64,000 nt of DNA, taken from assembly GCA_016350165.1 (NCBI GenBank), contig CP066225.1:4464001-4528000 (forward strand), read 5' to 3'. This stretch comes from Planctomycetota bacterium (lineage in GTDB: Bacteria > Planctomycetota > Phycisphaerae > Phycisphaerales > Phycisphaeraceae). Shown here in pieces: positions 45,958-59,400 of the stretch. Within the stretch, counting starts at the first letter, position 1. Every line of letters begins with the position of its first letter. Position numbers and translations under genes: made by a program. Below the pieces are notes generated by a model. It was not told the origin of the DNA, searched no databases, and saw nothing but the letters and a program-made list of their open reading frames with translations.

Positions 45958-47673
45958 ATGGCCGCAAAAGAATTGGCCTTTGAATCGGAAGCTCGTGCAG
46001 GACTCCTGCTTGGCGTTGAAAAACTCGCCTCAGCAGTCAAAAGCACGCTTGGCCCGCGTGGCCGCAGCGCAGTCATCGACAAGAGTTGGGGTGGCCCAAC
46101 TGTTACCAAGGACGGCGTCACGGTTGCTGAAGAAATCGAGCTTAAAGACAAAAACGAAAACATGGGCGCCCAGCTCGTCAAAGAAGCTGCTAGCAAGACT
46201 TCTGATAAAGCTGGTGACGGTACCACAACTTCCACAGTCCTCGCAGAAGCACTCTTCCGTGAAGGTCTCAAGCAGATCACTGCTGGGGCAGATGCTAACG
46301 CAGTCGTCCGTGGTATGAAGAAAGCTGTTGAAGCTGTCGTTGCTAATATCCAATCACTCGCCAAAGCAATCGACGGCGAAAAGGATATCCAAAACGTCGC
46401 AGCCATTTCTGCTAACAATGACCAAGTCATCGGCAAAATCATGGCAGACGCTATGAAGAAGGTCGGCAAAGACGGCGTCATCACAGTTGAAGAAGGTAAA
46501 GGTCTCGATACATACGTCGACGTTGTCGAAGGTATGCAGTTCGATCGCGGTTACCTCTCTCCAAACTTCGTGACAGATGCAGATAACATGCTCGTCTCTA
46601 TGGACAAAGCACTCGTGCTTATCTACGAAGACAAGATTTCATCTATTCAGCAGTTAGTTCCATTGCTTGAAAAAGTGCAGCAAGCTAAGCGTCCTCTCGT
46701 CGTCATCGCTGAAGACGTCGAAGGTGAAGCACTTGCAACACTCGTCGTCAACAAGCTGCGTGGTGTTCTCAACATCTGTGCAGTCAAAGCTCCAGGCTAT
46801 GGCGATCGTCGTAAAGCAATGCTCGAAGATATCGCTGTCCTCACTGGTGGCCAAGCCATCATGAAAGACCTCGGCATCGAACTCGACAAGGTTGAACTGT
46901 CACAACTTGGAATGGCGAAAAAACTCGTCATCGATGCTGACTCAACAACCATCGTTGAGGGTGCAGGCGAATCCAAAGGCATTCAAGCACGTATCGAGCA
47001 GATCCGTCACGAAATTGCTTCTTCATCTAGTGACTACGATCGTGAAAAACTACAAGAACGTCTCGCTAAACTCGCAGGCGGCGTTGCTCAGATCAATGTT
47101 GGTGCTGCAAGTGAAGCAGAACTTAAAGAAAAGAAAGCACGCGTCGAAGATGCACTCCATGCAACTCGCGCTGCTGTTGAAGAAGGTATCGTCCCTGGTG
47201 GCGGCGTAAGCTTCATCCGTTCTATCGCTAAGTTGAACAAAGTCGAAACCCTCGGCGATGAAGCGGCAGGCGTTTTGATCGTTAAGAAAGCCCTTGAGCT
47301 TCCACTTCAGACGATCTCCGATAACGCAGGTGAACGCGGTACTGTTGTCGTCAGCAAAGTTGCTGAAGGCAAAGGTGCATTTGGTTTCGACGCACTCAAG
47401 CTCGAATACTGTGACCTCCTCGAAAAAGGTATCATCACACCAGCCAAGGTTGACAGAACTGCTCTTGAAAACGCAGCTTCAGTTGCAACCCTTCTCCTGA
47501 CTTGTGATTGTATTGTCACCGAAAAATCATCCGACGACGCCGGTGCCGGCGCAGGCATGCCTGACATGGGCGGCATGGGTGGTATGGGCGGCGGTATGCC
47601 AGGTATGGGCGGCATGGGCGGTGGAATGCCCGGCATGGGTGGCATGGGCGGTATGATGCCCGGCATGATGTAA
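45958..47673 (+). CDS. groEL: Chaperonin GroEL, copy 1, with long Gly-Met tail
   Basis: 571-residue 60-kDa chaperonin subunit that folds proteins inside a double ring with GroES. Typical features: [38 protein letters not shown], the apical domain with [40 protein letters not shown], and the C-terminal [16 protein letters not shown]. It ends in a long Gly/Met/Pro tail of about 35 residues made from GGM and GMP units, longer than the E. coli (GGM)4M tail. Codons are C-ending biased, as in highly expressed genes. The N-terminus ([20 protein letters not shown]) is somewhat unusual. groES and a second groEL follow. Confidence 0.95.
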
Positions 47674-47742
47674 TCAGTCACGTTCTAACTATCTAATACA
47701 CCATTAGACAAACAAAAGCGACTATTCGCTTGGAGATAAAAA

Positions 47743-48045
47743 ATGGCAAAGAAAACAACAGTTAAGCCATTGGATGACCGCATCATCCTCAAGCCAACCG
47801 TGGCTGAAACTAAAACTGCTTCTGGTATCTTCCTTCCTGAGTCTGCAACCGAAAAACCAATGACTGGTACAGTCATTGCTGTTGGTCCTGGCAAGCTTAA
47901 CGAAGACGGCAGCCGTACAGACCTTACCATCAAAAAGGGCGACGTCGTCCTCTACGGTAAGTACTCTGGCACAGAAGTTGACATCGACGGTGTCGAGCAC
48001 ATGATCGTTCGTGAAAACGAGTTGCTCGGCGTAATCGAAGACTAA
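47743..48045 (+). CDS. groES: Co-chaperonin GroES
   Basis: 100-residue lid protein of the chaperonin. KPLDDRIILKPTVAETKTASG opens the fold, the mobile loop follows (TASGIFLPESATEKPMTG), then VIAVGPGKLNEDGSR, KKGDVVLYGKYSGTEVDIDG and the C-terminal MIVRENELLGVIE. Complete and normal length. It lies between two groEL genes and could serve both; TTGGAG precedes the ATG. Confidence 0.96.
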   Translation: MAKKTTVKPLDDRIILKPTVAETKTASGIFLPESATEKPMTGTVIAVGPGKLNEDGSRTDLTIKKGDVVLYGKYSGTEVDIDGVEHMIVRENELLGVIED

Positions 48046-48108
48046 GAGTTGCACTGCTTATGCAGTGTTTGAATAGAAACGCTAATCAGAATTTATGGAG
48101 CCAAATCA

Positions 48109-49722
48109 ATGGCGAACAAACAGATGATGTTTGGATCTGATGCGGCAATGCAGCTCAAAAAAGGTCTTGAGCAACTTGCCGCTGCCGTGAAGGTCACAAT
48201 GGGACCAACCGGCCGCAACGTTGTCATGCAAAAATCCTTCGGTGGCCCTGCTGTCACCAAGGACGGCGTCTCCGTTGCAAAAGAAGTTGAAATCAAAGAG
48301 CCCTTCCAGAACATGGGCGCGAAGATGGTTGTTGAAGTCGCTAAGAAAACTGCTGACAAAGCAGGCGACGGTACAACCACCGCAACCGTGCTCGCTGAAG
48401 CCATCTTCAGTGAAGGCCTCAAACATAAAATCGCTGGCGCTAACGCCATCGCTCTACAGCGTGGCATCAATGCTGCATCAGATGTAGCTGGTCAGGCAAT
48501 CAAAGACATGGCCGTTGCATGTGACGGTAAAGACGACTACAAAAAAGTCGCCACCGTTTCTGCTAACCATGACATTGAAGTCGGCGAAGTGATTGCAGAA
48601 GCAATCGCTAAAGTCGGTAAAGACGGCGTCGTCGAAGTCGAAGAAGGCAAAACTGCTGAAATCGATCTCAACTACGTCGAAGGTATGCAGTTCGACAAGG
48701 GTTACCTGTCACCATACTTCATGACCGATCCGAAGACTTCAGAATGTATCATGGAAGATTCACTGATCCTTCTTCACGAGAAAAAGATCAGCAACCTCCA
48801 GGACCTCCTCCCATTGCTCAACAAAGTTGCAATGGCTCAGAAGTCACTTGTTATCGTCGCTGAGGACGTTGAAAACGAAGCACTTGCTGCACTCGTCGTC
48901 AACCGTCTGCGTGGCACCATCAAAGTCGCTGCTGTTAAAGCACCAGGCTTCGGTGATCGCCGTAAAGCAATGATGCAGGACCTCGCAGTTCTTACCGGTG
49001 GTCAGTTCCTCAGTGAAGACCTAGGCGTTCAGCTTGAAGCTGTCGAACTCGAACAGCTCGGTACAGCCAAGAAGATTGTCATCGACAAGGACAACACAAC
49101 CATCATCGAAGGTGCTGGTACAAAAGCCGATCTTGATCAGCGTATCGCTCAGATCCGCAAGCAGATCGAAACCACAACCTCCGATTATGACCGTGAAAAA
49201 CTGCAGGAACGTCTCGCCAAGCTCACCGGCGGCGTAGCCATCATCAATGTTGGCGCACCAACTGAAACTGCTATGAAAGAGCGTAAAGACCGCGTTGATG
49301 ACGCACTTCACGCAACCAAAGCTGCAGCTGAAGAAGGTTACGTCCCAGGTGGCGGCGTTGCACTTATTCGTGCAATCGAAGCGATCGAAGCAAAGCGTGC
49401 AAAAGCACGTGGCGATGAAAAGCTTGGTTTCGACATTGTCGCAGCAGCTCTTGAAGTTCCACTGCGTCAAATCGTCGAAAACGCTGGCGATGATGGCTTC
49501 ATCGTTGTCGAGAAGGTTAAAGAAGCCGAAGGCAGCAAGGGCTACAACGCTGCAACTGGCAAGTACGTTGACATGGTTAAAGCTGGCATCATCGATCCAG
49601 CCCTCGTCGCTCGTACCGCACTTCAGAACGCTGCATCTGTCTCAGGTCTCATGCTCACGACGAACGTCCTGATCACTGAGCTTGAAGGTGAAGATGAAGC
49701 TGTCGAAGGTGCAGTCAGCTAA
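48109..49722 (+). CDS. groEL: Chaperonin GroEL, copy 2, without Gly-Met tail
   Basis: 537-residue chaperonin with all core motifs: VKVTMGPTGRNVVMQKSFGG, GDGTTTATVLAEAIFSEG, VIVAEDVENEALAALVVNRL, KAPGFGDRRKAMMQDLAVLT and EEGYVPGGGVALIRAIEA. It ends in an acidic tail (ELEGEDEAVEGAVS) instead of the Gly/Met tail of copy 1. Twin GroELs of unlike tail type suggest different client sets. N-terminus (ANKQMMFGSDAAMQLKKGLE) is closer to the conventional form. TATGGAGCC precedes the start; codon choice is C-ending biased. Confidence 0.95.
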   Translation: MANKQMMFGSDAAMQLKKGLEQLAAAVKVTMGPTGRNVVMQKSFGGPAVTKDGVSVAKEVEIKEPFQNMGAKMVVEVAKKTADKAGDGTTTATVLAEAIFSEGLKHKIAGANAIALQRGINAASDVAGQAIKDMAVACDGKDDYKKVATVSANHDIEVGEVIAEAIAKVGKDGVVEVEEGKTAEIDLNYVEGMQFDKGYLSPYFMTDPKTSECIMEDSLILLHEKKISNLQDLLPLLNKVAMAQKSLVIVAEDVENEALAALVVNRLRGTIKVAAVKAPGFGDRRKAMMQDLAVLTGGQFLSEDLGVQLEAVELEQLGTAKKIVIDKDNTTIIEGAGTKADLDQRIAQIRKQIETTTSDYDREKLQERLAKLTGGVAIINVGAPTETAMKERKDRVDDALHATKAAAEEGYVPGGGVALIRAIEAIEAKRAKARGDEKLGFDIVAAALEVPLRQIVENAGDDGFIVVEKVKEAEGSKGYNAATGKYVDMVKAGIIDPALVARTALQNAASVSGLMLTTNVLITELEGEDEAVEGAVS

Positions 49723-49783
49723 TCAACGCATGCAGTGGCGGGTTAGACAATAACTGTCATACCTTTCATAAAGCAAAAAATTA

Positions 49784-49818
49784 AGGGCTCACCGGTGAAA
49801 GCCGCTGAGCCTTCTTCA
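49784..49818 (+). terminator. Hairpin between groEL2 and dnaJ
   Basis: AAGGGCTCA and TGAGCCTT flank an inner CCGG-containing loop and can pair with a single bulge. A C/T-rich stretch follows instead of a clean T run, so partial termination or an mRNA-processing hairpin is more likely than full stop. Confidence 0.35.
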
Positions 49819-49856
49819 CTCAATCAAGGGCGGGTAGAACAAAGGATTGATTCATC

Positions 49857-51002
49857 ATGGCCACAGAGCGTGATTACTACGAAATACTTAGCATTGAACG
49901 CACCGCTAGCGGTGACGAAATCAAACGCGCTTATCGCAAAATGGCGATGAAGTATCACCCAGACCGTAACCCCGACAATGAAGAAGCGGAAATCAAATTT
50001 AAAGAATCCGCTGAAGCGTATGAAGTTCTCTCAGACGAAGAAAAGCGTCGTCTCTACGATCAATACGGCCATGCTGGTCTTAAAGGACGCGCTGGTCACA
50101 ACTTCAACCAGATGAACCCGAACGACATCTTCTCTATGTTCGGTGACATCTTCGGTGACATGTTTGGCGGTGGTGGCGGTTTCGGTGGCCAAAGTCGAGG
50201 CCCACGTGGCAACCGTCCAACCCGCGGCTACGATCTTGAAACACTTGCTGAAATCTCACTCGAAGAAGTACTCAGCGGTTGTGAAAAAGATATCGACTTC
50301 ACACGTCAGGACGTCTGCGATACATGTGACGGCTCCGGCGCAAAGCCCGGCACCGATCCAATCACATGTTCAACTTGTGGCGGCAATGGCCAAGTCATGC
50401 AGTCCGGTCTTGGTGGTATGTTCCGCATGGTCACGACCTGTCCAGACTGTAACGGTCAAGGTAAAGTCGTCAAAGAACATTGCCCTGAATGTTCAGGAAA
50501 AGGTCGAATCCTTAAAGACCGCAAAATCTCCGTTAAAATCCCCGCAGGCGTTCATGACGGGCAAGCCGTTCGCATCGCAGGCGAAGGTGAACCCGGTCTC
50601 AACGGAGGACCACGCGGTGACCTCCACGTTGTCATACGTGTAAACAGGCACGAACTCTTCGTTCGTGATGAGGATGACATTATCCTCAAGATGCCGATCA
50701 GTTTCACCCAAGCTTCGCTCGGCGCAAACGTGACGATTCCAACACTTGAAGGTGAAGATGAAATCACAATCAAGGCCGCATCACAGCACGGCGATGTAAT
50801 CAAAGTGCAAGGCGGCGGTTTACCGAATCTTCGCGGCGGCAGACGTGGCAACCTTCTTGTCGTCCTGCTTATTGAGATTCCAAAGAACCTCACTGACAAG
50901 CAAGAAGAGTTACTCCGAGAGTTTGCAGAAACGGAAGATCATGATGTTCTCCCGCACTCAAAAGGGTTCTGGGAAAAAATCAAAGAATACATGGGCGGCT
51001 AA
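49857..51002 (+). CDS. dnaJ: Chaperone DnaJ
   Basis: 381-residue full-length type A J-protein that stimulates DnaK. J domain with [10 protein letters not shown] (HPD triad), a Gly/Phe-rich linker ([17 protein letters not shown]), four zinc-finger CxxCxGxG motifs ([32 protein letters not shown]), and C-terminal substrate domains ending with a [15 protein letters not shown] motif. It follows groEL2 and precedes grpE; no intact dnaK is in the window, so the partner must be elsewhere. Confidence 0.96.
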
Positions 51003-51097
51003 TTTTTAAAGATTAAATCAGCTGTCTAATCAAGGGTTAGAGTAAGGTGTGTTGGTCATAATTTAGAAAACATAAATGATTCACAGCAGAGGCTGAA

Positions 51098-51700
51098 ATG
51101 AGTAAGAATAAAGACGATCACAACATGGAAGAACCTCAAGACGAGAACTTGAAATTCAACGGTGAAGGCGAAGGTGAGGACTACGAGCCAACCGAAGAGG
51201 ATTTTAAAGTTGATGCTTATGACGAGGAAGATGAGAAGAAACAAGAACTTACCGAAGAGGAAAAGCTTCGTAAAGAACTTGAAGAACTCAACGAAAAGTA
51301 TCTGCGCACCGCAGCGGATTATCAAAACTACGTTCGCCGTGCTGAGCAGAACGTTGGTGTTGTGCGTGAACAACAGATTATGAGCATGGCTCGTGAGCTT
51401 GTTACAGTACTCGATCACTTCGATCGTGCAGTTGAAGTTGATAAGGAAAAAGTCACGGTCGAAGACCTGCTCGGCGGCGTTAAGATCGTTAAGGACGAGC
51501 TTTTACGTTCAATCGGAAAGTTTGGTGTTGAACGGGTTGAGGCGGAAGTTGGACAAGAATTTGATCCAAATAAGCATGAAGCTATGATGCGTCAGCCGAG
51601 TGAAGATGTTGAGACGAATCACATTGTTCAGCAGTTCCAGCCGGGGTACATGATCAATGACAAAACGATCCGTCCTGCGGGTGTTATTGTCGCTCAATAA
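51098..51700 (+). CDS. grpE: Nucleotide exchange factor GrpE
   Basis: 200-residue exchange factor for DnaK. An acidic, disordered N-terminus is followed by a long coiled coil containing EEKLRKELEELNEKYLRTAADYQNYVRR (partly quoted), and the beta-wing domain with FDPNKHEAMMRQPSEDVETN and VVQQFQPGYMINDKTIRPAGVIVAQ (partly quoted). All usual GrpE features are present. It is intact, unlike the GrpE-like remnant at 43.1-43.7 kb. Confidence 0.95.
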   Translation: MSKNKDDHNMEEPQDENLKFNGEGEGEDYEPTEEDFKVDAYDEEDEKKQELTEEEKLRKELEELNEKYLRTAADYQNYVRRAEQNVGVVREQQIMSMARELVTVLDHFDRAVEVDKEKVTVEDLLGGVKIVKDELLRSIGKFGVERVEAEVGQEFDPNKHEAMMRQPSEDVETNHIVQQFQPGYMINDKTIRPAGVIVAQ

Positions 51701-51793
51701 TTTGCGAGAGCAAACGTTGTAACTGATTATTCAGTAATAGGTTGTGGCTTGTGTTGGTTTGCGGAATTGTGGTTGTGAGTGAAGGAATTTGTT

Positions 51794-52141
51794 ATGCCGA
51801 CGTATGACTATGTATGTGACAATTGCGGCCATGAGTTTGAAGAATTTCAAATGATGAGCGCAAAACCCCTGAAAAAATGCCCTGAATGTGGCAAGATGCA
51901 GTTGCGCAGACTGATCGGTGCGGGTGCAGGTGTGATTTTTAAAGGCAGCGGTTTTTACGAAACTGATTACAGGTCAGATAGTTACAGCAAAGATCAGAAG
52001 GCGGCTAAAGACGCAAAGAGTGCTGCGAAAAAGGATGCGGCAGCACCGAAGTCGGAGAACAAGAAAGCGGATTCAGGATCGTCTGGTGGGGAGAAGAAGA
52101 GTTCAGGTGGCGGCAAAAAAGAGGCTGCTACGAAGAAGTAA
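51794..52141 (+). CDS. FmdB-type zinc-ribbon protein
   Basis: 115-residue protein with the FmdB/CxxC putative regulatory ribbon MPTYDYVCDNCGHEFEEFQM followed by the second knuckle KKCPECGK and RRLIGAGAGVIFKGSGFYETD. The last 50 residues are Lys/Ala/Ser-rich and low-complexity. ATG 51794 opens the conserved domain and has a GAAGGAA site before it. FmdB proteins often follow grpE in planctomycetes; function is unknown, and regulation of stress or metal-related genes has been suggested from family naming only. Confidence 0.85.
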   Translation: MPTYDYVCDNCGHEFEEFQMMSAKPLKKCPECGKMQLRRLIGAGAGVIFKGSGFYETDYRSDSYSKDQKAAKDAKSAAKKDAAAPKSENKKADSGSSGGEKKSSGGGKKEAATKK

Positions 52142-52166
52142 TCTGAGCAAAAAATACAAGATATTG

Positions 52167-52198
52167 ACCGTCGCTCCAATATGATCGACGGTTTTTTG
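52167..52198 (+). terminator. Intrinsic terminator after the fmdB-like gene
   Basis: ACCGTCG (52167-52173) and CGACGGT (52186-52192) form a perfect 7-bp stem, followed by five or six T residues. It ends the chaperone block transcript. Confidence 0.85.
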
Positions 52199-52572
52199 TT
52201 TACTTTTCGTGCGCGCATTTTGCGCCAATTTTGAACACACGATTGGAAGTTGATTGAGTGGCTCGAGATATAATTTTTGAGTTTGCGCGCCGCATATTTG
52301 CGAAATTGCGTGTTTTTAGGTGCTTTCGGCCAAAAACGATCAAAAGTAGGTTGGAAATTGACAGAAATGGGTCAGAAATGGGCAGTACAGCCGTTGATTA
52401 GACTGATTTTGATGTTGTTTTTGTGCGCGCAATCTGAAGAAAGGTGAAATAGCCTTCATCGTTGTCCGTCTATATATTGATGGGGGCTGGAAGAAGGGTA
52501 TCTGAGCAGGCGAATCATGTCTGAATCTGGTCCTGATGCCAGTCTTGAATGAAGATCTTTTGGGAGCTGATA
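52199..52572. other. Intergenic region with three TGCGCGC motifs
   Basis: About 370 bases between terminator and next gene. TGCGCGC occurs at 52210-52216, 52284-52290 and 52434-52440 in otherwise AT-rich DNA. No coding frame. The region should hold the promoter of the next gene. Confidence 0.45.
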
Positions 52573-53037
52573 ATGAAGTACGTGAATATGATAGCTGTGT
52601 TTTTGGTTGGTTTGGTTTTGGGGAGTGGTGTGATGTGGTATGTCGGTTGGCTGAATGCGCAACCGGCTTTTTATAATGTTTATGGTGCGGAGCTCATTGA
52701 ACTGAATAGTCGGCTTGATGTGAATGTTAGTTCTTTGGCCCATGATGTGGCGTGGGAGATGGGGGACGTTGTGACGACACCAGAGGGATCTGAGTCGATG
52801 CCTTCGTTTGGGCAGGGAGGGAGTGTTTCGAAGGATATGGATGGGAATTTTCTGTATTCGATTTCGTATACGAAGTTTAAGGATATCGATAAGAATGAGT
52901 ATGAGGTAAGGGTGTATACAATCGTAGGGCGGCCGACGGTGGTGCTTTTGGAGTGTAGTGACCCATCCAGAAAATACGATTTCTTCAATAAACTCTCAGC
53001 TAAATTGGGTGAAGAGCGAAAGAAGGGTGGATGGTAA
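52573..53037 (+). CDS. Hypothetical membrane-anchored protein
   Basis: 154-residue protein with an N-terminal transmembrane segment (MIAVFLVGLVLGSGVMWYVGW) and a soluble domain rich in beta strands (FLYSISYTKFKDIDKNEYEV; VYTIVGRPTVVLLECSDPS). ATG 52573 has GGGAGC upstream; an earlier in-frame start would add eight residues. No family recognised. Possibly periplasmic domain of unknown role. Confidence 0.6.
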   Translation: MKYVNMIAVFLVGLVLGSGVMWYVGWLNAQPAFYNVYGAELIELNSRLDVNVSSLAHDVAWEMGDVVTTPEGSESMPSFGQGGSVSKDMDGNFLYSISYTKFKDIDKNEYEVRVYTIVGRPTVVLLECSDPSRKYDFFNKLSAKLGEERKKGGW

Positions 53038-53119
53038 ATCAGGGGGTAAAGGCATATGATTAAGTTGGTGTACAGCGGATGAATAGGGAGGCAGGTAAAA
53101 ATTATAGAAAGGTGTTTGT

Positions 53120-53590
53120 ATGAGACGTGCTGCTCAAGAGATTAAGGATCAGGTTGTTTTGGAGGAGATTTTGAAGGGGCAGGTCATATGCAGGTTGGGG
53201 ATTATGGATGGCGATAAACCTTATGTTGTGCCGGTAGATTATGGGTACGAGGATGGCTGCTTGTTTATCCATACTGCGATTGAGGGGAAGAAACTGGATT
53301 GTTTGCGTTTGAATAATCATGTTTGTTTTGAGATCGATGAGTTAAAGAAGACGATGACGGACGATGTACCTTGCAAATGGTCGTCGATGTATCAGTCGAT
53401 TATTGGGTATGGAGATGTTGAATTTGTTGAAGGCGGCGATGCGAAGCGACATGGATTAGATGTGATTATGCGACAACATGGCGCAGAAGGTGAGTTGGAC
53501 TATCGTGATGCGCATGTGAATGCAACCGAGATTCTGAAGGTTAGAATCATGGAGATGACAGGGAAACGATCGAAGGTTTGGGAAGAGTGA
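53120..53590 (+). CDS. Pyridoxamine 5'-phosphate oxidase-family flavoprotein
   Basis: 156-residue small split-barrel flavoprotein (NimA-like branch). Key segments: GQVICRLGIMDGDKPYVVPVDYGYEDGCLFIHTAIEGKKL (shown only as its start VICRLGIMDG and PYVVPVDYGY), then FEIDELKKT, SSMYQSIIGYGDVEFVEG and VLKVRIMEMTGKRS-like end. Such proteins bind FMN or haem and often detoxify nitro compounds or serve unknown redox roles. No operon partner is obvious. Confidence 0.85.
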   Translation: MRRAAQEIKDQVVLEEILKGQVICRLGIMDGDKPYVVPVDYGYEDGCLFIHTAIEGKKLDCLRLNNHVCFEIDELKKTMTDDVPCKWSSMYQSIIGYGDVEFVEGGDAKRHGLDVIMRQHGAEGELDYRDAHVNATEILKVRIMEMTGKRSKVWEE

Positions 53591-53707
53591 TTAGCGCTCA
53601 GTAGATGCTTGTCAGATTTTGAAACAACGTATATAAATTTGAGAAATTAGCAGCGTACTTGAATATCATCCTATTAATATCGCACCGATTTGAATGGATG
53701 AGAGATT

Positions 53708-53938
53708 ATGGTATTTGGTTGTCGCGCGGCTTTGTTTGCTTCTTTAATTGTTGTGGGTGGGTGTTCATGTGGTTATGGGGGAGGGTCTCGCTGCTCATTT
53801 TATAATGAGAGATATCAGAGCCCGGGATTTCTGTTCTGGGTATCGGGTGAAGATATTCGTGTCGAGAGCAAGGCTTTGGAAGGGGGTGATTATTGCAATG
53901 ATGGTGAGAATGATCGTGTACGTTGGGAGGCGTTTTGA
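53708..53938 (+). CDS. Possible small lipoprotein
   Basis: 76 codons with a signal-like start ending in lipobox VVGGC (ASLIVVGGCSCGYGGG). The rest is hydrophilic. It overlaps the 3' end of the convergent lyase-kinase gene by about 49 bases. Real gene status is uncertain; no homolog is recognised. Confidence 0.35.
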   Translation: MVFGCRAALFASLIVVGGCSCGYGGGSRCSFYNERYQSPGFLFWVSGEDIRVESKALEGGDYCNDGENDRVRWEAF

Positions 53939-55284
53939 AGCTTATGCATGATAGCAAACTTATGAAGCATGTTGAGTGCGTAAGCTTCGATAGAGTTCTG
54001 AGGTGAAATGCTGCGAATCATGTTATGTATTTGAATAATTCGGTTTTTAAAGGTTTCTATTTGTGCGGCACGATCAATTTTGTAAAGCGATGAGACGATG
54101 AGGTGGATGTGATCGAACATGATGGGGTCGTCAATGTCAGGGTTTTCAAAGAAGAATGTTGTCATGATGCTTGGTTGATCGTGAATTGATGAAGCACTTT
54201 CGAGATCAATGATGCGCAAATCTGTTGGGGAGTTGCCTTGAATGAAGTTGTCGAGTTTTGCATCACGTATGATGAAATCTTCGCGGTGTATTTGTTTGAG
54301 AATGTTTGCGGCTGCATGTAGCGATTGCGGTGAGAGTTGGTTAGTTAATCTATGATGTTGCAAGTTTTGGCCTGGGATTTTTTCGAGGACCAGTATGCTG
54401 TGCATGGGCGTTTGCTTGAAGTCGATAATGTTTGGTAGAAGTTGTTCAAGACCTGCAGCATACATTTTTTGATACATGAGATATTCGTGATTGATCAGGT
54501 CTTTGCCTGTGGCTCGGACATCTTGAGGATGGATACCACGAGATGATCCGATTTTCACGATGACTTCAGTGTAGGTGTTCTTTGAGATATCGAGAGCGAG
54601 ATATGTGCCACCTTTCCATGCTTGCATTTTCGCTTCGAAAATAGGGTATTTTGTCAGAAAATCTTCTAGGTCTGGATCAGTTTCTACTGGTTCGAGGTGT
54701 GGTATGAATGGATCTTGGAGGCCGAGTTGTTTGTATTGGTTTGGGTTTGTACGGTCGTCGCTGAAGGAGGTTGCTTTGTGTGTGATTTCGAGGCTTTGGT
54801 AGGAGCCGTAACGGTAGTAGAGAGGGAGTCCTCGGCCGATGGCGTTGGCATGGGGTACGATTGGGCAGAGGCCTGAATAAGAGGAAAGTGTTTGCTTGAG
54901 GGCGATGATGAGGGAGTCGATATCGTTGCATGTCTGGAGGTAAGCGACGATCGCTTTGCCGATTTGGGAGTATGCTGCAAAACCTGAATTAATTTTCTTT
55001 AGTACACGTAATGAACGTGCGTATTTGAAACAGGTATTGTGTTGGATGAGGATTGGTGCAATGGTTGTGAGAATGTCGTAGTAGTTTTGGATGGATGACG
55101 AGATGTATAGTTTCCAGCCATGTTTTATATTAGATGGAACTTGGCCGTAGGCTGCCCATGTTTGTGTGAATGTGTTTTTTTGAGCAGGTGTGTAGATGAT
55201 TGCATCGGGGCCAAAGAAATCAGGGGAGGGTATGTCTTGTGTTGGTTTTACCATCGTCGATGACTGAAGAATATGCAGAGACAC
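53890..55284 (-). CDS. LanKC-like lyase-kinase protein without cyclase domain
   Basis: 464-residue protein that matches the first two domains of class III/IV lanthipeptide synthetases. The N-terminal lyase-like domain (residues ~20-165) shows GWKLYISSS (56-64), CFKYARSLRVLKKINSGFAAYS-like segment (85-106) and PLYYRYGSY (154-162). The kinase-like domain has Lys244 (VIVKIG), Glu267, catalytic R340-D-x-K-x-D-N346 and D360-L-E. In classical enzymes the kinase phosphorylates Ser/Thr and the lyase eliminates phosphate to give dehydro residues. Here the lyase Lys-x-His signature reads K58-L-Y60, so the general-acid His is replaced by Tyr, and the usual ~400-residue C-terminal cyclase is missing. Three precursor-like genes lie directly upstream on the same strand. 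Confidence 0.75.
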   Translation of the reverse strand: MSLHILQSSTMVKPTQDIPSPDFFGPDAIIYTPAQKNTFTQTWAAYGQVPSNIKHGWKLYISSSIQNYYDILTTIAPILIQHNTCFKYARSLRVLKKINSGFAAYSQIGKAIVAYLQTCNDIDSLIIALKQTLSSYSGLCPIVPHANAIGRGLPLYYRYGSYQSLEITHKATSFSDDRTNPNQYKQLGLQDPFIPHLEPVETDPDLEDFLTKYPIFEAKMQAWKGGTYLALDISKNTYTEVIVKIGSSRGIHPQDVRATGKDLINHEYLMYQKMYAAGLEQLLPNIIDFKQTPMHSILVLEKIPGQNLQHHRLTNQLSPQSLHAAANILKQIHREDFIIRDAKLDNFIQGNSPTDLRIIDLESASSIHDQPSIMTTFFFENPDIDDPIMFDHIHLIVSSLYKIDRAAQIETFKNRIIQIHNMIRSISPQNSIEAYALNMLHKFAIMHKLQNASQRTRSFSPSLQ

Positions 55285-55350
55285 AAAGTCAATACGATTG
55301 AATGTTGCGTTGTGCAGGGGTAATGAATTTTTTGGTGCTTAACCTGTTGT

Positions 55351-55587
55351 TTATGAAGGATCAAAGCACGTTACTACTGAAATCCAAGGTGTAGTTGTTG
55401 TTGCTGTTGTCGTTGCAGTGGTGAGCATGATTGTGTCGTTGTTCTTATGCAATGAACGAATGGCTTGCTCGTTGATGCAGAAACCAGTGAGAAGCAGAAG
55501 GAGTTGAGATTTGTTCTGTGCAGCATGTAAGTCACTGCGAAACTTTTGGTATTCTGCGGGATTGTCTTTCAGTTTTTGAATATCCAT
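55351..55587 (-). CDS. RiPP precursor peptide C
   Basis: 78-residue peptide from ATG 55587 with a GAGGAAG ribosome site; the frame is open upstream, but the ATG aligns exactly with the starts of the two sister peptides. The leader MDIQKLKDNPAEYQKFRSDL aligns without gaps to the others over 46 residues (shared N9, Y13, F16, R17, A23, N25, S27, L33, F36, E40, I43, R44, L46). The core is Thr-rich (TTATTTATTTT) and ends WISVVTCFDPS, so its Cys is five residues from the end, unlike the other two, which end in Cys. Next gene is the LanKC-like enzyme. Confidence 0.7.
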   Translation of the reverse strand: MDIQKLKDNPAEYQKFRSDLHAAQNKSQLLLLLTGFCINEQAIRSLHKNNDTIMLTTATTTATTTTPWISVVTCFDPS

Positions 55588-55621
55588 ATGTACTTCCTCA
55601 ATGAACTGTTTTACTGAATAT

Positions 55622-55852
55622 TTAGCACGCGTAGTATGAAACGACAACGGTTGTGGTTGCAGAGATTGTAGGAGTGAAGGTTGCAAGGATGCTGTCCTCG
55701 CTGTCAGGAGTGCTGAGTGATCGGATGTCGATTTCATTAGTGCTGAATTCAGCGAGTATTTTGCGTAGATCGGAAGTATTTGCGGCTTTCATGATGTTGT
55801 TGCGGAATTGGCTATAAGTTTCGGGGTTGCTTTTGAGCATGTTTGGATTCAT
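55622..55852 (-). CDS. RiPP precursor peptide B
   Basis: 76-residue peptide with an AAGGAG ribosome site ending 7 bases before its ATG. The leader (MNPNMLKSNPETYSQFRNNI, then TSDLRKILAEFSTNEIDIRSL) is conserved with A and C. The core SILATFTPTISATTTVVVSY ends YAC with a single C-terminal Cys. Seven or more Ser/Thr residues could be dehydrated and one Cys used for ring closure. Expected to be the substrate of the nearby lyase-kinase; mature structure unknown. Confidence 0.72.
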   Translation of the reverse strand: MNPNMLKSNPETYSQFRNNIMKAANTSDLRKILAEFSTNEIDIRSLSTPDSEDSILATFTPTISATTTVVVSYYAC

Positions 55853-55881
55853 GTCGTTCTCCTTTCATTTGATGATGTGGC

Positions 55882-56121
55882 TTAGCAAGCGGCATATGAG
55901 ATAAATATTGTTGATGTCGTTGTGGTCGTTGTTGGAGGGATTGAGAGAAGGTTGTTTGAGTCATCGAGATCGGATTGGGGGGCTAATGCACGGATAGAGT
56001 CTTCGGTTGTGCAGAATTCAGTGAGTATGTGATTGATTTCAGACTTGTTGTTGGCTCCGAGAATGTGAGCGCGGAATGATTGATATGCAGACGCATTGTC
56101 CTGCAAGTGATTGGCATTCAT
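55882..56121 (-). CDS. RiPP precursor peptide A
   Basis: 79-residue peptide, first gene of the cluster, with ribosome site AGAAGGA before its ATG. Leader MNANHLQDNASAYQSFRAHI, then NNKSEINHILTEFCTTEDSI, shares the invariant positions listed for peptide C. After an Asp-rich spacer the core PPTTTTTTSTIFISYAAC ends in Cys, matching the SYxAC ending of peptide B. The leader contains one extra Cys (position 37, shared with C). No transporter or protease is adjacent. Confidence 0.72.
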   Translation of the reverse strand: MNANHLQDNASAYQSFRAHILGANNKSEINHILTEFCTTEDSIRALAPQSDLDDSNNLLSIPPTTTTTTSTIFISYAAC

Positions 56122-56132
56122 GGTAAATCCTT

Positions 56133-56149
56133 CTAGTCGACTGGACTAG
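56133..56149. repeat. Inverted repeat in front of the RiPP operon
   Basis: CTAGTC / GACTAG with a five-base spacer lies 11-27 bases upstream of the peptide A start, immediately before its ribosome site. It may be an operator or an mRNA hairpin that controls translation of the first precursor. Confidence 0.45.
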
Positions 56150-56382
56150 TTTGTTAAGTATGTTGTAACGTGTTGTTTGCCGTGTAATAAAGAAATGCTG
56201 AGTCGATACATTTTATGAAGTTGTGTGTTGCTCGATCCAGTTAAGTGATTAGAAAACTAATTGAGTATTTAGTGTGAAGATATTGTGGGTTTAGCTAGGT
56301 TGTGATGTGGAATTACTTAGTAATAGGTAATTTTCGTGCATTACTAGGAGGTTATTTGCGAAAGTATAGAGGAGTGGAAATG

Positions 56383-56413
56383 AAAAAGGCTGAGCAAGTG
56401 AATGCTCAGCCTT
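56383..56413 (-). terminator. Intrinsic terminator of nifJ
   Basis: AAGGCTGAGCA (56386-56396) and TGCTCAGCCTT (56403-56413) form a perfect 11-bp stem with loop AGTGAA; on the minus strand it is followed by a T run. It lies 28 bases after the nifJ stop and insulates the RiPP operon from nifJ transcription. Confidence 0.88.
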
Positions 56414-56440
56414 GTTGGTTTTTGTAGGAGTTTGTCGTGC

Positions 56441-59400
56441 TTATTTAGCGGCTACTACTTCTTGGACTTCTTCAACCTTGTCGGCAGTCATAATGGCTGC
56501 GAGTTGTTTGTAGACTTCGATGCGTTGCTTCGCTTGAAGCTCTGCATATTCTACGAACTTCTCATAACCTTCTGGGTTCATTTTCTGAACCATGCGGAAG
56601 CGGTTTTGGCCGGCCATGTACTCGCGGACAGATCCCTTGAAGATCTTATTGTCGAGTTGGAGTGCTGGCTTGCCTGTGCCACGGAGGCGTGGGTCGAAGC
56701 GGTAGAGAGGCCAGATGCCAGCGTCGACAGCGAGTTTCTGCTGGTTGAGGCCTTGAGCGAGGTCGTAACCGTGAGCGATACAGTGTGAGGAAGCGATGAT
56801 GATGGATGGTCCATCATATGACTCGGCTTCTTTGACTGCTTGAATGACTTGGTTGTCCTTGGCACCGAGTGCGACTGAGGCAACGTATGCGTGGCCGTAA
56901 GACATGGCGATGAGGCCGAGGTCTTTCTTGCCGATTTCCTTACCGGATGCTGCGAACTTCGCGGAAGCACCGATAGGTGTTGCTTTGGAAGCTTGGCCGC
57001 CGGTGTTTGAGTAGACTTCGGTGTCGAGCACGAGGATGTTGATGTCACGATCGGAAGCGATGACGTGGTCGAGACCGCCGTAACCGATGTCGTATGCCCA
57101 GCCGTCGCCGCCAAAGATCCAGATGGACTTGTGGACGAGTGCGTCAGCGATGGAAACGAGACGCTTGGCTTGTGGGTTGTCAGAATCAGCGAGCTGCATC
57201 TTGACTGTTTCGATGCGGCCACGTTGTTCGGAGATAGCAGCTTCATCCTTGTTGCTAGCATCAGCGAGGATTGCTTCGACGAGCGCTGTGCCGAGTTCTG
57301 GCTCAAGTTGCTTGAGCAAGTACATGGCAGCTTCTTTTTGCGAGTCCATAGAGAGACGCATACCGAAGCCATATTCCGCGTTGTCTTCAAACAGTGAGTT
57401 AGACCAAGCAGGACCACGACCTTCGGAGTTGCATGTGTATGGTGTGGTTGGGAGGTTGCCGCCGTAGATTGATGAACAACCTGTTGCGTTTGCAACCATC
57501 ATGCGGTCACCGTAAAGCTGTGTGACGAGCTTGACGTATGGTGTTTCGCCACAACCTGCACATGCACCTGAGAACTCGAACATTGGCTCGAAGAACTGTG
57601 AACCCTTCGCGTCGATGCGAACGATTTTCTCACGAGGTGTTTCAGGTAGCTTGGTGAAGAAGTCCCAGTTGGCTGTTTCGACTGCATGGTTGTCGATGCG
57701 TGAAGCCATGTTGATGGCTTTTTTGCCTGGCTCAGTCTTGGACTTGGATGGACAAACCATGACGCAGAGATTACAGCCGGTACAGTCGTCAGGTGAGACC
57801 TGAAGGATGTACTTGGAACCCTTGAGATCCTTGGCTTTGTAGTCCATGGACTTGAAGTCTTCTGGTGCGCCTTCGAGTGATTCTGGATCAACTGCCTTGG
57901 CACGAATTGCTGCGTGTGGGCAAACCAGAGCACACTTGTTGCACTGAATACAGGTGTCTTCTTCCCAGATTGGGATTTCGGTCGCGATGCCACGTTTTTC
58001 CCATTGGCAAGTGTCCATTGGCCATGTGCCGTCAACTGGGAATGCTGAGACAGGAAGAAGGTCGCCCTTGCCAGCCATGATTTCAGCGGTGACTTTCTGA
58101 ACGAAGTCAGGAGCTTCAGCAGGCACGATTGCAGGACGATTGAAGTCGCCTTCTGGTGTTGCTGTGAGCTTGATTTCGTGAAGGTTTTCGATGGTGCCGT
58201 CGACAGCTTTGAAGTTCTTCTCGACGATGTCCATACCCTTTTTGGCGTATGTCTTTTCGATCGCACCCTTGATCTTTGCGATTGCTTCGTCCTTTGGAAG
58301 GATGCCTGAGATGGCGAAGAAGCAAGTCTGCATGATGGTGTTGATGCGACGACCCATGCCAGTGGCTTGGGCAACTTTTTCCGCGTCGATAACAAAGAGC
58401 TTGACCTGTTTTTCGATCAGCGTTTTCTGTAGTTCGACTGGGAGTTTGGCGAGCGTTTCTTCTGCTGCGTATGGTGAGTTGAGCAGGAAGATTGAGCCTG
58501 GCTTAGCGAGTTCAAGCACGTCGAGTTTTTCAGCGAACATGAACTGGTGACAAGCAACGAAGTCAGCGTCGCCGATTAAGTATGGTGCACGGATTACGTC
58601 TGGACCAAAGCGAAGGTGTGATGTTGTCATCGCACCAGACTTCTTGGAGTCGTAGACGAAGTAACCCTGTGCATAGTTGTCTGTTTCTTCACCGATGATC
58701 TTGATGGTGTTTTTGTTTGCACCAACAGTACCGTCAGCACCGAGGCCATAGAAGACAGCACGGAAGACGTCGTCGGTTTCGATGGACATATCAAGATCCC
58801 ATGAGAGTGAGGTCTTGGTGATGTCGTCGAGGATGCCGACGGTGAAGTGGTTCTTTGACTTGTCTGCTTCGATGTTATCGAAGACAGCTTTGACCATCGC
58901 AGGTGTGAACTCTTTGGAGGAGAGACCGTAGCGGCCGCCGATAACCTTTGGTTCTGCTGCGAATGATGAGTAGCCTTCAGCTCTTGCTTCAGCAAGTGCA
59001 GTGATAACTTCTAAGTACATTGGTTCGCCGACTGCACCAGGTTCCTTGGTACGGTCTAACACTGCGATAGACTTAACGGTCTTAGGCAATGCATCGATGA
59101 AGTACTTAGCTGAGAATGGACGGAAGCAGCGGACTTTGAGGAGGCCGACTTTCTTACCTTGTGCATTCATGTGAGCGACGGTTTGTGCGACAGTTTCGCA
59201 GCCTGAACCCATCGCAACGATGACTTCTTCTGCGTCTTCAGCACCTTCGTACTCATATAGTTTGTACTGACGACCTGAGATTGCAGCGAACTCGTCCATA
59301 GTTTCCTGGATGATGTCAGCAGCTTGGTCGTAGTAGGTGTTAGCAGCTTCGCGAGCTTGGAAGAACACGTCAGGGTTCTGAGCTGTGCCGCGAATTGCAG

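Follow-up and report, generated by a model that had tools for sequence, protein, structure and literature searches.

Class III lanthipeptides are made by LanKC enzymes such as ThurKC, CurKC and PneKC, in which an N-terminal lyase domain and a central kinase domain are fused to a C-terminal LanC-like cyclase, and which are adjoined by small precursor genes. The class IV enzymes (LanL) also carry a LanC domain, with zinc ligands. In class V lanthipeptides, thioamitides and kintamdin the peptides have a Cys near the C-terminus, and separate kinase and lyase proteins act with LanD- or LanX-type partners; in class Va, kinase and lyase are described as working without LanC (PMC12291118, PMC9415263). 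The dehydrazoles (CcaM) are dehydrated peptides without thioether rings (PMC10676384). Here, we report a gene set located in a 64,000-nt stretch of contig CP066225.1 of a Planctomycetota bacterium (hereafter, the window), which comprises three small precursor-like peptide genes and a gene for a lyase-kinase of 464 residues. These genes probably specify a cyclase-free, class III-like pathway for a ribosomally synthesized and post-translationally modified peptide (RiPP), with phosphorylation and dehydration of Thr and Ser as its most likely chemistry. The two domains belong to the same families as those of LanKC and small genes are likewise adjacent, but the enzyme has no LanC domain of either the class III or the class IV type. 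It is one fused protein, unlike the class V, thioamitide and kintamdin systems, with which its peptides share a Cys near the C-terminus, and its architecture differs from that of the dehydrazole enzyme. The initial annotation had stated that such an arrangement matches no described class exactly, and this holds for the lanthipeptide classes that we compared. Among the matches listed in the open-licence literature, none was found to describe a naturally occurring lyase-kinase of the RamC type that lacks the cyclase and has precursors of its own.

The gene set occupies the minus strand in the order A1, A2, A3 and enzyme (Table 1). The initial annotation had proposed three tandem paralogous genes followed by one enzyme gene on the same strand, and the coordinates and the comparison of the peptides bear this out: Smith-Waterman z values ranged from 18.6 to 21.4, and for each of the three pairs none of 2000 shuffles was as good. 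The first 48 residues alone gave z values of 15.9 to 20.5. By eye, ribosome-site-like stretches lie just 5' of the starts of A1 (AGAAGG), A2 (AAGGAG) and A3 (GAGGAAG), and no clear stretch of this kind was seen before the GTG start of the enzyme gene (55284). For A3, an internal ATG at 55587 is the best reading of the start and was preferred over a longer frame of 128 residues.

Table 1. Features of the gene set, in positions of the window.
Feature	Position	Strand	Basis
Precursor-like peptide A1, 79 residues, presumed core end ...PPTTTTTTSTIFISYAAC	55882..56121	(-)	Open reading frame list and paralogue comparison
Precursor-like peptide A2, 76 residues, presumed core end ...TPTISATTTVVVSYYAC	55622..55852	(-)	Open reading frame list and paralogue comparison
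Precursor-like peptide A3, 78 residues, presumed core end ...TTATTTATTTTPWISVVTCFDPS	55351..55587	(-)	Internal ATG start
Lyase-kinase enzyme, 464 residues, without LanC-like cyclase	53890..55284	(-)	Open reading frame, Pfam, NCBIfam, PDB sequence search
RamC_N (phospho-Ser/Thr lyase-like) domain, residues 42-169	54778..55161	(-)	PF25816, base positions calculated from the residues
Protein-kinase-like domain, about residue 204 to C-terminus	53893..54675	(-)	Pfam, structure match, alignment

The C-terminal parts of the three peptides are Thr-rich, with a single Cys each. All three (3/3) contain TxxxSxxxC, the Thr at -8 and the Ser at -4 from the Cys being identical; A1 and A2 end in this Cys and A3 runs on as CFDPS. 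Class III cores and leaders frequently, although not strictly, show the motifs SxxSxxxC and LxLQ, respectively (PMC7268733), whereas none of the three window peptides has either motif.

The enzyme matched RamC_N (PF25816) with an E-value of 1.8e-18 over the range given in Table 1, and Pkinase with 1.9e-4, under the Pfam cut-off. Among the NCBIfam lanthionine models, LanL gave the top score (3e-31, model positions 7-364 of 851), at 108.6 bits far under its equivalog cut-off of 650, and LanKC matched with 2.3e-25 (positions 42-407 of 833; 89.2 bits for a cut-off of 575). Both models, to which the initial annotation had pointed, match over their first halves only. The best solved relatives in a PDB sequence search were lanthionine synthetases, and in length the enzyme is close to the lyase-kinase part of ThurKC, Met1-Gln486 (PMC10604976). 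The two top structural rows of an AlphaFold model of the enzyme (predicted local distance difference test, pLDDT, 52) were the CurKC kinase, the first with Z 13.8, a root-mean-square deviation (rmsd) of 3.4 and 173 aligned residues. For the relative encoded at locus L008 (pLDDT 60), the comparison with ThurKC gave Z 18.4 over 370 aligned residues (rmsd 19.2), and the 11 best structural rows were all lanthipeptide synthetases or their kinase domains. Both models are poor and were weighed only alongside the sequence results. The sole PADLOC matches, to PD-T4-6 kinase models, were weak (5.2e-8 at best); we read them as general kinase likeness.

LANC_like had no match in the enzyme, nor across the whole single-contig source genome of 5.23 Mb, and on this ground a cyclase encoded elsewhere was rejected. 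The enzyme gene was the only RamC_N match of this genome. Neither a LanD-type nor a LanX-type partner was seen beside it; as for separate kinase and HopA1-type lyase proteins, the window has the one fused protein, and no genome-wide search with PF17914 was made. These results agree with the initial annotation, which had described a LanKC-type lyase and kinase without room for a cyclase.

Cyclase-less enzymes with nearby small genes were also detected in several unrelated groups of bacteria. A plasmid tblastn search matched 40 records and led to enzymes of Salipiger, Enterococcus and Streptococcus. A plasmid of Salipiger sp. CCB-MM3 encodes a two-domain enzyme of 528 residues without cyclase. 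Upstream of it lie two small frames that are rich in Thr and contain Cys, and the record does not annotate one of them as such. A class I S-adenosylmethionine methyltransferase gene, possibly for a tailoring enzyme, follows the lyase-kinase gene (L005 7645-8475). Plasmids of Enterococcus faecium and Streptococcus salivarius encode cyclase-less lyase-kinases of 435 and 453 residues, each with one small peptide gene whose product ends in SGAHS...CH. The two products are homologues of one another (z 31.7, 0/1000 shuffles); the Streptococcus gene lies upstream in the same direction, and the Enterococcus one on the opposite strand, beyond transporter and peptidase genes. ATP-binding cassette transporter genes stand beside both enzymes (L006 2688-5552 in Enterococcus, L083 4221-5934 in Streptococcus), together with a prolyl oligopeptidase gene in Enterococcus. 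A second small gene of 96-102 residues directly precedes both lyase-kinases (L006 5615-5905, L083 2555-2863) and is conserved between them (z 29.2, 0/1000 shuffles).

Scanning genome contigs yielded four loci: one with a full synthetase, from Thermomicrobiales, and three verrucomicrobial loci that lack the cyclase and whose titles name Spartobacteria and Chthoniobacterales. In one verrucomicrobial order, 204 of 213 genomes matched the two-domain alignment at E<=0.001. The enzyme carriers are the 18 genomes that match at 3.9e-82 or better, G702 and G704 being partial (G702, in fragments, is outside the set of fetched loci); in the other genomes, the matches listed all fall in the kinase part. 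LANC_like was absent from 6/6 scanned cyclase-less relatives and present in a full-length control (L011). It was also absent from 13 of 16 enzyme-bearing verrucomicrobial genomes, whose completeness is not stated, and lay on another contig in the other three. Where canonical class III enzymes read SSGKF or SASGKF in the alignment, cyclase-less ones read [SA]Q[IV]GK, a form also found in full-length L011 and L077. By eye, large signalling genes, rich in tetratricopeptide repeats or nucleotide-cyclase-like, flank the lyase-kinase in five verrucomicrobial loci (L008 5365-7464 and 9388-11754, L009 2869-5052, L010 5463-7541, L026, L027).

Precursor-like genes recur beside these enzymes. With a model built from six peptides, a precursor-like gene was found directly upstream of the enzyme gene and on the same strand in 12 of the 13 fetched loci of the main verrucomicrobial subgroup (L008-L010, L060-L068, L073), three of which had been used in building the model. 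Outside model building the count was 9/10, the sole exception being L066, which had no match. All 17 matches at E<1e-5, two of them from Salipiger, have CT within the last 40 residues, and 14/17 have CT[DEN]; these matches lean towards such columns, since 6/17 built the model and the model contains them. The four loci L069-L072 had no match to the model. By eye, small frames with a DLxPKxDxxGG-like stretch, unlike the other precursors, adjoin enzymes of this last subgroup (L069 7562-7729 and 5919-6107, L038 211-540). Also, L072 holds a second, broken lyase-kinase copy with internal stops (about 1431-2595) near the intact one.

A tree was built from 11 full synthetases and 20 enzymes that lack the cyclase, 31 in all (L073, at a contig end, was left out). 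In it, the cyclase-less enzymes form one side of a branch with support 93/93, recovered in 91% of 200 bootstrap trees. The same branch had a Shimodaira-Hasegawa-like approximate likelihood ratio test value of 91 in a quick tree with six rows removed. As the window enzyme seems to belong with cyclase-less enzymes of several phyla, it need not be a one-off truncation. A single origin of the cyclase-less enzymes is compatible with this tree, which does not establish it.

On these grounds, we infer a pathway of the following kind. The leader halves of A1-A3 would bring the peptides to the enzyme, whose kinase domain would phosphorylate Thr and Ser in the Thr-rich core, and the RamC-type lyase domain would convert the phosphorylated residues into dehydrobutyrine and dehydroalanine by eliminating phosphate. 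The one Cys of the core could then add, spontaneously or with the help of the enzyme, to the dehydroalanine four residues before it. Such LanC-free closure has a precedent in the class Va rosins, in which the lanthionine ring is reported to close under substrate control (PMC12291118). The predicted product is a dehydrobutyrine-rich peptide with at most one lanthionine ring, which would be followed by leader removal and export.

Several observations weigh against this reading. The first is distribution. According to the initial annotation, a lack of conservation of the small frames among relatives would refute its proposal, and the outcome was negative: the peptides had a match in 1 of 301 genomes of the order, the source genome itself, and the enzyme was missing in relatives too, as at E<=0.001 it matched 2/201 order genomes, the source and one weak match (18 bits, residues 276-373, in a 911-residue frame). 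The conservation that we see lies among the three paralogues and not across relatives. Secondly, the Cys-Thr pair of the verrucomicrobial cores is not found in the window cores. Homology of the window leaders with other leaders, the verrucomicrobial and Salipiger ones among them, was examined in four ways and is not established: the profile comparison gave P 0.061, the best pair z 4.2, and the precursor model listed just one of the three window peptides, with an E-value of 0.3. The window peptides showed no likeness to the Firmicute ones (z -0.4 to 1.9). Finally, the place of the window enzyme in the tree is unsure. Its branch is very long (4.2-4.7), and its pairing with the two Firmicute rows has weak support (81/72) and carries a warning that it may be false. 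These three enzymes are parted from the other 17 cyclase-less ones by a branch with support 95/95.

The remaining points against dehydration concern catalysis. Aligned with ThurKC, the window lyase has Tyr60 in place of His67 and Ala146 in place of Asp152. At these two places, every one of the other 30 enzymes in the alignment has His and an acidic residue (Asp or Glu), respectively. In ThurKC, H67A and D152A are reported as impaired, and K108A as installing no dehydro residues (PMC10604976); in the cyclase-less rows, Gly or Ala stands where ThurKC has Lys108. The window lyase does keep Lys58, Lys87, Lys110 and Arg158, equivalent to ThurKC K65, K94, K117 and R163; according to the same source, changing K65, K94 or R163 to Ala leaves no product and K117A stalls. 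R191 maps, less surely, near Arg178. As the kinase residues Lys244, Asp341, Asn346 and Asp360 are kept as well but Tyr60 and Ala146 differ, phosphorylation looks possible, and elimination may be slowed, altered or lost. Also, reports differ on whether a lyase-kinase alone can dehydrate: the excised ThurKC lyase-kinase is reported as inactive on its own peptide (PMC10604976), whereas for CurKC and SgbL an excised dehydration part is cited as being enough (PMC10676384). Of the minimal lanthipeptide-like or dehydrated-peptide pathway that had been suggested at the outset, the lyase-kinase with its precursor-like peptides stands, and its dehydration step, with two residues relevant in ThurKC lost, is a prediction.

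The two replacements, peculiar to the window enzyme, are what makes a phosphopeptide pathway the main rival. In such a pathway the kinase would work, the lyase would be disabled and the product would carry phospho-Thr or phospho-Ser. We consider it unlikely, as the counterparts of ThurKC K65, K94 and R163 are retained and the presence of a whole lyase domain argues for some role.

A decaying LanKC, that is, a full class III gene that has lost its cyclase and no longer works, is improbable. The very long branch and the lost acid/base residues would suit it, and so would the isolated, accessory location of the genes and the failure to find the enzyme in relatives. In genome G049, of the same genus, the fetched stretch aligns with both flanks at 80-87% identity, and window positions from about 52018 to 56498 are unmatched there. 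Neither the enzyme and the peptides nor a neighbouring oxidase-like gene was found anywhere in G049, and the oxidase-like gene was found in 0/20 relatives. Since other genes fill the site in G049, the gene set is accessory; by eye, these are prepilin-like, alpha/beta-hydrolase-like and GrpB-like genes (L059 7125-9542), so the site looks variable. Against decay speak an open frame of 464 codons, a genome in which no LanC remnant was detected, three paralogous peptides that have conserved TxxxSxxxC, and the branch that has all cyclase-less enzymes on the same side.

It is very improbable that the genes do not encode a RiPP at all, the kinase-lyase modifying another cell protein and the peptides being regulators or unrelated: other lyases of the same fold, which are effectors, do act on proteins (PMC10604976), but other loci, too, have small peptide genes next to the enzyme gene. 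We give hardly any credit to an aminovinyl-cysteine peptide, formed by decarboxylation and closure of a C-terminal Cys as in class Va and thioamitides, for although A1 and A2 end in Cys, A3 continues beyond it, no kinase-like protein occurs among the six flanking proteins scanned, and the two flavoproteins of the genome, both far from the gene set, resemble UbiX (adjoining a UbiA-like gene) and CoaC (PAMNADMW), judging from context and motifs.

The six neighbours scanned were DnaJ, GrpE, a zinc-ribbon protein, a protein without Pfam match, a pyridoxamine-phosphate-oxidase-like protein and pyruvate:ferredoxin oxidoreductase; protease and transporter families were not found among them. The G+C content is 0.42-0.45 across the gene set and 0.50-0.54 in the oxidoreductase gene, and as positions 51000-53999 on the other flank are equally low, composition alone says little. 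One scan of viral contigs for viral spread gave 34 pattern matches and no relative. In samples of larger groups, RamC_N was found in 2 of 392 genomes of the phylum, the source and one with a 910-residue frame, and in 2 of 387 genomes of the phylum of genome G562, one of these below the cut-off. Elsewhere in the window (45992-49823), two tandem groEL-like genes were seen by eye; each of them also matches, at 71-73%, the counterpart that the other has in the same-genus genome.

A large lanthipeptide survey assigned LanC-like proteins to class III or IV only if they had a match to a kinase model as well (PMC7268733). Enzymes without LanC fall outside a survey seeded in this way. It is conceivable, although we rather doubt it, that cyclase-free lyase-kinase RiPPs form an unrecognized class spread over several phyla, with dehydrated or phosphorylated linear products; the window member would then be shifted towards phospho-Thr-rich peptides, given the replacement of two lyase catalytic residues. 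If the proposed cyclase-free pathway holds, there is a blind spot that hides a class of dehydrated or phosphorylated peptides, and the Cys-Thr pair of the verrucomicrobial cores raises a well-defined question of chemistry. Also, as the accounts of excised ThurKC and CurKC disagree, natural lyase-kinase didomains could then show whether dehydration needs the cyclase.
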